From an uncultured Emergencia sp. (GTDB taxonomy: Bacteria > Bacillota > Clostridia > Peptostreptococcales > Anaerovoracaceae), in contig CAJFTU010000049.1 in NCBI GenBank assembly GCA_904420065.1, forward strand, positions 100,552 to 164,551: 64,000 bases of DNA, given 5' to 3'. Shown piece by piece: positions 29,669 through 32,400 of this stretch (its first letter is position 1; each line of letters begins with the position of its first letter). Under the pieces are notes generated by a model, which made no database searches, had not been told where the DNA came from, and saw nothing but the letters and a program-made list of their open reading frames with translations. The position numbers and the translations under genes were made by a program.

Positions 29669-30511
29669 ATGTTGATCGATGTGAATAAAAAGAGACTGAA
29701 AAAAATGGGCGCGGGCGTTTTGGCCGCGGCCTTGGTCATCGGTGCAGCCGCCGGATTTCGCGTGATTCATCCCGGCCCGGCAGGCGGCGACGGCGGGCAG
29801 ACCGTTTCCCAGCCGGCAGATACGGAGGGAGTAAACTGGGGATTATCCTTCGGAGAAGAAGGAAAGACACCGGCAGGAAACGCCAGCAGCAGCCAGCTGA
29901 AAGAATACGACGCGTTTTATTGCGGAGACGAAGCAAAGAAGACGCTGTATCTGACTTTCGACGCCGGTTACGAAAACGGGTATACCGATGAAATTCTGGA
30001 TGTGCTGAAGAAGGAAAAGGTTCCGGCGGCGTTTTTCGTGGTCGGAACGTATATCGAAGATAATCCGGACCTGATCCGCAGGATGGAAAAAGAGGGACAT
30101 ATCGTGGGCAATCATACCATGAGCCATCCGGATATGTCTTCCATTGCCGATCAGGATACGTTCAAAAAGGAACTGGAACAGGTGGAAGAGCTGTATAAAG
30201 AGATGACCGGAAAAGAGATGAAAAAGTTCTATCGTCCGCCTCAGGGCAAGTTCAGTTTCCACAACCTGGAGCAAGCGAAGAACCTGGGCTACACCACGGT
30301 GTTTTGGAGTCTGGCCTATGTGGACTGGTATACCGATCAGCAGCCGACCCGAGAAGAGGCGTTGGAAAAACTGATTCCCAGAACCCACAACGGTGCAATT
30401 ATCCTGCTTCATTCCACATCAAAAACCAATGCCCGCATTCTCCAGGAATTAATAACCAAATGGAAAGAAGAAGGGTATCAATTTGCCTCTCTGGAAAAAT
30501 TGGGCATGTGA
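29669..30511 (+). CDS. polysaccharide deacetylase, PdaA-like
   Basis: LYLTFDAGYENGYTDEILDVLKKEKVPAAFFVVG, GHIVGNHTMSHPDM, YRPPQGKFS. Confidence 0.92.
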   Translation: MLIDVNKKRLKKMGAGVLAAALVIGAAAGFRVIHPGPAGGDGGQTVSQPADTEGVNWGLSFGEEGKTPAGNASSSQLKEYDAFYCGDEAKKTLYLTFDAGYENGYTDEILDVLKKEKVPAAFFVVGTYIEDNPDLIRRMEKEGHIVGNHTMSHPDMSSIADQDTFKKELEQVEELYKEMTGKEMKKFYRPPQGKFSFHNLEQAKNLGYTTVFWSLAYVDWYTDQQPTREEALEKLIPRTHNGAIILLHSTSKTNARILQELITKWKEEGYQFASLEKLGM

Positions 30512-30537
30512 TTACAATGAAAATTAGTTTTAGAAAT

Positions 30538-30584
30538 AAAAACCGCTATATATGATATTTAACATTATATAAAGCGGTTTTTAA
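30538..30584. terminator. intrinsic terminator
   Basis: aaaaaccgct...agcggttttt. Confidence 0.75.
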
Positions 30585-30662
30585 AATGTCAACAAGGAAT
30601 TGCAAAAAAGACGGAAATGTTTTATACTATTGTGTATGAAAAAAGTGAAGGAGAGACGCCCG

Positions 30663-31184
30663 ATGAGAGAACTGGATGAATTTAAAGATAAGCTGAGACA
30701 TGCACGGCCGGAGCAGTGGGACCTGATACCGGATATTGAGCTTTATATGGACCAGGTGATCAGCTACATGACGCGGCAGCATATCGGTCTGGAGCTGGAT
30801 GGAGATGAGAACTTGACCTCAGCGATGATCAACAACTATATCAAGAGCGGTCTACTGCCCCGGGCCCGGGGAAAGAAGTACAACCGTGAACATATCGGTT
30901 ATCTGACGGCTATTTGTCTTCTGAAACAGGTGCTCAGTGTCAGCGAAACCGGCGCTTTGCTCAGGCAGCAGATGGAGAACCGCAGCGTAGAGGATTTTTA
31001 CCGTCACTATACGGAAATTCTGGATGAAGAATTTTCCAGAACTGCTGATGAGATTGGGGACGGATCCGACAAGGAGGAACTGATGCAGTTGGCGCTGCAG
31101 ATGGCCGTTTCCAGCTACGCGCAGATGCTGTCCTGCAAAAAAATATTGGAATTCACCGCATCAGAAGAGAAGCGGGAAGAGTAG
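30663..31184 (+). CDS. DUF1836 domain-containing protein
   Basis: LIPDIELYMDQVISYMTRQ...LTSAMINNYIKSGLLPRARGKKYNREHIGYLTAICLLKQVLS; ATG at 30663 preferred over tool start 30600. Confidence 0.85.
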   Translation: MRELDEFKDKLRHARPEQWDLIPDIELYMDQVISYMTRQHIGLELDGDENLTSAMINNYIKSGLLPRARGKKYNREHIGYLTAICLLKQVLSVSETGALLRQQMENRSVEDFYRHYTEILDEEFSRTADEIGDGSDKEELMQLALQMAVSSYAQMLSCKKILEFTASEEKREE

Positions 31185-31209
31185 CCGGCAATCGGACCGG
31201 GATGTTGTC

Positions 31210-31266
31210 ACGTTTTTTATCCCCCTTTCATAGTATAGAATATCTTACTGTGAAAGGGGTTTTATT
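31210..31266 (+). promoter_or_regulatory. composite element: stem-loop (31222-31259) with sigma-K/E-like -10 (CATAGTATA) and embedded cotJA SD
   Basis: cccctttca/tgaaagggg plus 5 further pairs; AC - 17 nt - CATAGTATA; AAAGGGG 7 nt before the TTG start at 31267; ttttatttt follows the stem. Confidence 0.55.
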
Positions 31267-31554
31267 TTGGATAGAAAAGAGCCTTATGTCGGCATGCCGA
31301 TTGTTCTCGGCGACTTTGAAGAAGTGACGGCTCCTACTTGCTGCGACGCAGAGATCAGGCCGCAGCCGCAGCCTCAGCCAGATACGGAAACATCTCCGCA
31401 GCCGCCTCAGCAGACGATGATGGTCGCCATGGCTTATGTACCGTGGCAGAGATGGCAGCAGCCCTACGATTACGAGAGAGGGTTTCAGACGGGAACAATT
31501 TTCCCGGATCTGGATCTTCCGTTCACGGGCTATCAGGGAGGTATGAATCGATGA
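31267..31554 (+). CDS. cotJA: spore coat associated protein CotJA
   Basis: MVAMAYVPWQRWQQPYDYERGFQTGTIFPDLDLPFTGYQG; followed by cotJB and cotJC. Confidence 0.93.
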   Translation: MDRKEPYVGMPIVLGDFEEVTAPTCCDAEIRPQPQPQPDTETSPQPPQQTMMVAMAYVPWQRWQQPYDYERGFQTGTIFPDLDLPFTGYQGGMNR

Positions 31555-31799
31555 CGAGACAGGAAGCGATGAGAAAGGTACAGATGTACAGCTTTGCCCT
31601 GGATGATACGGGACTTTTTCTGGATACCCATCCTACCAACAGGGCGGCGCTGACCTTTTACGGTGATACACTGAAGAGGTATCTCGAAGCGATTGAAGTG
31701 TATGAGGATCAATTCGGTCCGTTGACAGCGGAGGATTCGGAAACGCAAAAAGGCTGGACCTGGGTAGAAACACCTTGGCCGTGGGAAATGGAGGATTAG
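31551..31799 (+). CDS. cotJB: spore coat protein CotJB
   Basis: MTRQEAMRKVQMYSFALDDTGLFLDTHPTNRAALTFY...GPLTAEDSETQKGWTWVETPWPWE; ATGA overlap with cotJA. Confidence 0.93.
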   Translation: MTRQEAMRKVQMYSFALDDTGLFLDTHPTNRAALTFYGDTLKRYLEAIEVYEDQFGPLTAEDSETQKGWTWVETPWPWEMED

Positions 31800-31800
31800 C

Positions 31801-32400
31801 ATGTGGACATATGAGAAGAAACTGCAGTATCCGGTAAGAATTAAAAATCCAAATCCGGCGATGGCGAAGTTTATCATAAGCCAGTACGGAGGTCCGGATG
31901 GTGAAATCGGCGCTTCTCTTAGGTATCTTTCGCAGAGATACTCAATGCCGTTCCGGAAGGTGGCGGCTGTACTTACCGACGTAGGAAGCGAAGAACTGGG
32001 ACATTTTGAAATGGTAGCGACCATTGTGCACCAGCTGACGAAAAACATGACTATGGAACAGATCAGAGAGGCGGGATTTCAGGAGTACTTTGTGGATCAT
32101 ACCTCGGGGGTCTACGCCCAGGCGGCGGCAGGGTTTCCGTTTGACGCACTCTGCTTTGCCTCCAAGGGGGATGCGATTACCGATCTGACCGAGGATATGG
32201 CTGCAGAACAGAAGGCGCGTACCACATATGACAATATCCTGCGCATGGTGGACGATCCCGACGTAATTGACCCGATCCGCTTTCTCCGTCAGCGAGAAAT
32301 CGTACATTTTCAGAGATTCGGTGAAGCCCTGCGAATTGTGCAGGATAATCTGGATTCTAAGAACTTCTATGCGATCAATCCGGAATTCGATATGCGATAG
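31801..32400 (+). CDS. cotJC: spore coat protein CotJC, manganese catalase family
   Basis: MWTYEKKLQYPVRIKNPNPAMAKFIISQYGGPDGE...DVGSEELGHFEMVATIVHQL. Confidence 0.95.
   Translation: MWTYEKKLQYPVRIKNPNPAMAKFIISQYGGPDGEIGASLRYLSQRYSMPFRKVAAVLTDVGSEELGHFEMVATIVHQLTKNMTMEQIREAGFQEYFVDHTSGVYAQAAAGFPFDALCFASKGDAITDLTEDMAAEQKARTTYDNILRMVDDPDVIDPIRFLRQREIVHFQRFGEALRIVQDNLDSKNFYAINPEFDMR

Follow-up and report, generated by a model that had tools for sequence, protein, structure and literature searches.

A hairpin ahead of the cotJ operon of an Emergencia species that probably joins a terminator, a Shine-Dalgarno mask and a sporulation promoter

How is a coat-protein operon of sporulation kept apart from a gene that ends just ahead of it in the same direction? 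The question is raised by the window analysed here, a stretch of 64,000 nucleotides from an uncultured Emergencia sp. (contig CAJFTU010000049.1), in which a DUF1836 gene is followed by cotJA, cotJB and cotJC (Table 1), so that read-through from the former would enter the latter. The first-pass annotation, made from the letters of the window, had named these genes, and Pfam agrees with it. It had also proposed that a hairpin between them stops or masks read-through RNA, while a sporulation transcript that lacks one arm of the hairpin is translated freely. The comparisons reported below support this interpretation with refinements. Positions 31207-31268 probably form a three-in-one element, acting as a terminator, as a mask of the cotJA Shine-Dalgarno (SD) sequence and as a sigma-K promoter whose transcript escapes the hairpin.

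Table 1. Features of the cotJ locus, in coordinates of the window.
Feature	Position	Strand	Basis
pdaA, upstream of the DUF1836 gene	29669-30511		TIGR02884 equivalog, above cut-off
DUF1836 gene, co-directional upstream neighbour of cotJ	30663-31184	+	Pfam PF08876, E 4.9e-27
-35 region GTCAC, with sigma-K-type AC at 31210-31211	31207-31211	+	AC conserved in 58/64 family cotJA promoters
Composite hairpin, 5' arm (promoter spacer and part of the -10)	31222-31235	+	Sequence, folds, spacer shuffles, covariation
-10 element CATAGTATA	31229-31237	+	CATANNNTR present in the family set
Candidate sporulation start site (loop or first base of the 3' arm)	31243-31246	+	Usual 6-8 nt from -10 to +1
Composite hairpin, 3' arm	31246-31259	+	Sequence, folds
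cotJA SD, AAAGGGG, entirely within the 3' arm	31253-31259	+	Sequence; SD core 5/5 paired with spacer/-10
T-tract TTTTATTTT 3' of the stem, reaching into the TTG start codon	31260-31268	+	Sequence; terminator rule
cotJA, TTG start	31267-31554	+	Pfam PF11007
cotJB	31551-31799	+	Pfam PF12652
cotJC, Mn-catalase-type coat protein	31801-32400	+	Pfam PF05067

Only 44 nt separate the stop codon of the DUF1836 gene from the -10 element. Read directly, CCCCTTTCA (31222-31230) is the perfect reverse complement of TGAAAGGGG (31251-31259), and the inward extension, earlier put at about five pairs, brings the stem to 14 pairs (31222-31235 with 31246-31259), one G-U included. The T-rich tail described in the first-pass annotation follows the 3' arm directly, and AAAGGGG is indeed the sole SD candidate for the TTG start at 31267. 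RNA folding of 31195-31290 gives -28.7 kcal/mol (z -3.4; 1 of 200 shuffles equally good) and folding of 31185-31266 gives -29.9 kcal/mol (z -4.7; 0 of 200), and together with its tail TTTTATTT the hairpin counts as a terminator under the rule applied, at -22.0 kcal/mol. When the 17-nt promoter spacer alone is shuffled, the observed value of -23.0 stands against a shuffled mean of -13.0 (sd 2.5) and is equalled by 0 of 500 shuffles; a second run at the same locus (300 shuffles) gave p = 0.007. Such an element can escape a simple terminator scan, as it did here, probably because of the scan's 8-nt loop limit, and the Rfam scan of the window returned 0 matches. Another strong terminator-like hairpin lies 3' of pdaA at 30537-30583 (fold of 30530-30595: -19.2 kcal/mol, z -7.2, with a T-tract), so pdaA appears to have its own terminator here, with the DUF1836 gene between it and cotJ.

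The promoter had been recognised as CATAGTATA at 31229-31237 with AC at 31210-31211. The AC turns out to lie exactly 17 nt before CATA, which makes the window sequence an exact match to the sigma-K criterion of AC, 16-17 nt and CATANNNTA. For comparison, cotJA upstream regions were collected from 64 loci of the same bacterial family. In each, the CATA closest to the start codon was chosen with no regard to the -35 region. In 58 of the 64 an AC precedes this CATA by 16-17 nt, and each of the other distances from 8 to 26 nt occurs in 0-5. The end of the -10 lies a median of 31-32 nt from the start codon, alike in loci whose upstream gene runs in the direction of cotJ and in those where it points away. 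The start codon itself is TTG in nearly all family members, whichever way the neighbour points. A sporulation start farther upstream, which would place the whole hairpin in the cotJ mRNA as a riboregulator of cotJA translation, is quite improbable. Long leaders are common, but AC-N16/17-CATA is conserved at the fixed distance from cotJA just given, and divergent relatives without such a hairpin argue that it is unnecessary for the regulation of cotJ.

The factor acting at this promoter appears to be sigma-K. The host genome contains a sigK-like gene with an intact reading frame (TIGR02846 above cut-off). The gene (L248:1492-2118, minus strand) encodes 208 aa without interruption and, by eye, seemingly lacks a pro-sequence; the sigma-K of C. 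difficile is likewise without one. Across the host genome the sigma-K pattern shows no enrichment (42 matches vs 60 for a reversed control), and it is therefore conservation at the cotJ locus that carries the assignment. Sigma-E is the alternative factor, since its -10 is similar to that of sigma-K, and a sigE-like gene, flanked as far as can be read by spoIIGA-like and sigG-like genes, is also present in the host genome. In C. difficile the cotJB2-cotD and cotF-cotCB operons require sigK, being lost or down in a sigK mutant, and sigma-K consensus elements stand upstream of the cotJ-type operons (PMC3789822).

From these parts we propose the following course of events. RNA reading through from the upstream gene would form the 14-bp hairpin, with the U-tract after it, and would terminate at about the cotJA start codon, and any read-through RNA that escaped would have its cotJA SD locked in the hairpin and be poorly translated. 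During sporulation, RNA polymerase with sigma-K would use AC-N17-CATAGTATA, in which the -10 is within the 5' arm. Since a start 6-8 nt after the -10 falls in the loop, the sporulation RNA would lack the 5' arm, could not form the hairpin and would be translated. The short leader predicted in this way is weakly structured in the folds of the hairpin loci.

This scheme can be compared with the direction of the upstream gene across relatives, the genomes being species representatives, many of them MAGs. In the co-directional class (24 loci, six genera) the upstream gene runs in the same direction as cotJ and ends no more than 100 nt from the -10; in the divergent class (33 loci) it points away. 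With directions taken from an automatic chain of open reading frames, and about 15 loci classed or excluded by hand, a hairpin with the SD paired is found in 23 of the 24 co-directional loci vs 2 of the 33 divergent ones (Fisher p 1e-12). By inspection, the two formal passes are other structures in longer leaders, and the composite form occurs in 0 of 33. The 23 co-directional hairpins have a core dG of -11 to -22, with the SD paired to the spacer or the -10, and all of them keep the -10 within the 5' arm. In 19 of them, the window locus included, the predicted fold pairs the SD core fully (5/5), from which masking of an escaped RNA would follow. Fold energy separates the classes more sharply than the pair-probability metric that was tried first. 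A Pagel-type test of correlated evolution, on a midpoint-rooted tree of CotJA/B/C (about 135 residues), gives LR 29.6 (p 6e-6); with the far-upstream class left out, LR is 27.2 (p 2e-5).

The same tie is seen within genera. G009 of the Emergencia clade and G246 of g79 have divergent neighbours and degenerate stems, and in g83 a strong stem accompanies the co-directional neighbour of G271, whose sisters are divergent and have weak stems. Overall, the stem is almost confined to loci where a co-directional gene could read through. The counter-cases are two loci that retain the hairpin with a co-directional gene ending 280-484 nt away, and G173, which retains it although nothing but the remnant of an HTH reading frame stands upstream. 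The family comparison amounts to a natural experiment, in which the hairpin is present when the neighbour could read through and otherwise gone. The first-pass annotation had held that an unconserved stem beside a conserved promoter and SD would speak against it. Such loci do occur, namely those that are divergent or have their own terminator; loss of the stem there is what the read-through model predicts, and the case does not contradict it.

Could the complementarity be a by-product of a pyrimidine-rich spacer standing ahead of a purine-rich SD? Spacers before CATA are often T/C-rich, but this explanation is hardly credible: when the spacer alone is shuffled with its composition kept, the hairpin is not regained (p<=0.01) in 23 of the 24 co-directional loci vs 1 of the 33 divergent ones. 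The spacer-shuffle test therefore rejects base composition as the source of the complementarity at the co-directional loci. The first-pass annotation had looked to an alignment of related cotJA upstream regions for covariation that preserves both stem and -10, and the 20 aligned hairpins indeed carry compensatory stem changes with -10 and SD both kept. Four stem pairs are changed on both sides, and 92.9% of cells are paired vs 43-60% in slid controls. The covariation score is reached by 0 of 500 shuffles, a control that ignores relatedness, which the slid control does not. At pair 11-50, a change of C-G to U-A in 7 sequences turns the SD GGGG into GGAG, a compensation that a compositional by-product does not account for.

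These substitutions bear equally on the suggestion that a regulator of the cotJ promoter binds the inverted repeat as its DNA operator, which we regard as improbable. An operator would agree with the inner near-palindrome CATAGTA/TACTRTG, similar within Emergencia and within g79 and partly retained in their divergent members G009 and G246. However, the divergent loci keep the promoter but lose the outer stem, and the compensating pair changes, including U-A for C-G, together with the G-U pairs, fit RNA.

The hairpin most likely serves the upstream gene as an intrinsic terminator into which the cotJ promoter and ribosome-binding site (RBS) are built, and the terminator half appears to be the part most strongly supported by the comparative data. 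All 23 composite hairpins pass the terminator rule (-15.6 to -22.5 kcal/mol), compared with 3 of the 33 divergent loci (-8.1 to -9.7 kcal/mol), and 22 of the 23 composite loci have no second terminator in the interval from the upstream stop codon to the promoter. G284, the only co-directional locus without the composite, has an ordinary separate terminator 55 nt upstream, and G086, G087 and G092, in which the co-directional gene is far away, likewise have ordinary separate terminators and no composite. The composite is accompanied by at least nine different upstream genes, unrelated to each other: those for PdaA, DUF1836, FMN reductase, pseudouridine synthase, a BadF/BadG-type ATPase, a GGDEF/EAL protein and a Cons_hypoth698 membrane protein, as well as a radical-SAM-like protein and an MCP-like fragment, both below Pfam cut-offs. 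Because these genes are mutually unrelated, the composite belongs with the cotJ promoter and with no single neighbour. The link drawn earlier to an upstream co-directional gene therefore stands, but not as one specific to DUF1836.

It is a realistic possibility, though short of probable, that the hairpin is merely a terminator, overlapped by the -10 and SD through shortage of space or by descent, and that masking is unimportant. Under that explanation the presence of the hairpin should follow the need for a terminator, as it does, loci with a separate terminator being without it, and the T-tracts are richer at co-directional loci. What it leaves unexplained is the complete pairing of the SD core in 19 of 23 hairpins and the use of the overlapping site in some loci despite 37-75 nt of free upstream space. 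Termination of the upstream gene looks like the main selected role of the composite; SD masking would be a further effect, here inseparable from it.

In three Emergencia relatives (G001, G003 and G012) pdaA ends within the promoter, its TAG stop codon forming part of the -10 CATAG. In B. subtilis pdaA is a forespore (sigma-G) gene, and cotJ is a mother-cell operon. The position of the composite at the end of pdaA in these three relatives suggests a more speculative reading, which we consider rather unlikely, that it is a compartment insulator: termination and SD masking would prevent read-through in the forespore from yielding coat proteins in the wrong compartment, while the mother-cell promoter would stay free. 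If this reading is true, a promoter within a terminator could recur as a general arrangement where sporulation loci are compact. Insulation by a promoter within a terminator can be tested in a named species, since strain SN18 of Emergencia timonensis carries the composite element (locus L048).

In E. coli, the frd terminator and ampC attenuator form one structure, common to the upstream operon and to the start of the next gene; the ampC promoter lies in the end of the frd operon, and the downstream transcript, which includes the entire hairpin, is attenuated. The cotJ locus similarly has a terminator common to two units and overlapped by the next promoter, but its transcript should lack the 5' arm and escape. 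With an intrinsic terminator in general it shares a stable stem, basal G-C pairs, a T-tract and a place right after the upstream gene, with no other terminator; unlike an ordinary one, its stem holds the -10 and SD of the next operon and its loop region is long. A closer parallel in logic is found in phage T4, where long upstream RNAs of gene e (lysozyme), and also of soc, 49 and I-TevI, mask the RBS in a hairpin, and late-promoter RNAs lack the 5' strand of the hairpin, which overlaps the promoter region, and are translated (PMC3014915). The T4 lysozyme precedent was named in the first-pass annotation, and masking and escape are documented behaviour of gene e. As in gene e, the cotJA SD is predicted to be masked in the longer RNA (core 5/5 paired), and the promoter of the short RNA overlaps the 5' strand of the hairpin, so that an RNA from the candidate start would lack that strand. 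Unlike gene e, which belongs to a phage and shows an effect on translation, the cotJ hairpin has a terminator T-tract, a sporulation promoter and a dependence on the direction of its neighbour; masking is documented for gene e and predicted from sequence for cotJ. The logic of T4 gene e would thereby extend to a sporulation operon on a bacterial chromosome. The sigma-K cotJ-type operons of C. difficile are homologous coat operons, for which the available portions of PMC3789822 do not map start sites and do not mention an overlap of promoter and terminator.

Terminators, promoters and RBSs are usually annotated separately, and here one 60-nt stretch appears to combine three jobs. A search of the host genome for a second composite with the pattern TTTCATANNATR...GAAAGGNG found the cotJA locus only. 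In a 464-kb sample containing 364 genes with an SD, 10 other SD-covering hairpins reach -13 kcal/mol or lower, and none of them matches cotJA in both stability and T-richness of the tail; cotJA is outside the ORF selection of this sample, and its -22 kcal/mol was computed separately. A search of the literature on overlapping terminator and promoter elements, with subscription journals mostly uncovered, found nothing directly on point, which is weak evidence of novelty.

Two further observations concern cotJ operons of relatives. In G082 (contig C16, 82800-87276; L163 and L164) two cotJ operons stand in tandem; in the second, the composite hairpin is weaker and a separate terminator lies 192 nt ahead of the -10. 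In other genomes inserts at about residues 34, 66 or 136 divide cotJC into two or three parts, as in L274 (G094), L275 (G084), L276 (G028), L277 (G342) and L278 (G095), and also in G030, G038, G046, G052, G083, G086, G089, G092, G171, G172, G175 and G275. A skin-type element in cotJC, or a disrupted cotJC, was not found in the literature searched, subscription journals being mostly uncovered. A large serine recombinase is present in 5 of the 5 inserts read, and the cargo of some inserts includes a P-type cation ATPase, an EamA transporter, and RnfC and ApbE genes. The inserts look like skin-type intervening elements, which would need to exit during sporulation. In G175 (g58), contig C1, 682934-769796, matches to CotJC residues 1-69, 63-136 and 133-199 are spread across 87 kb, a spacing that points to two distinct inserts within the gene.
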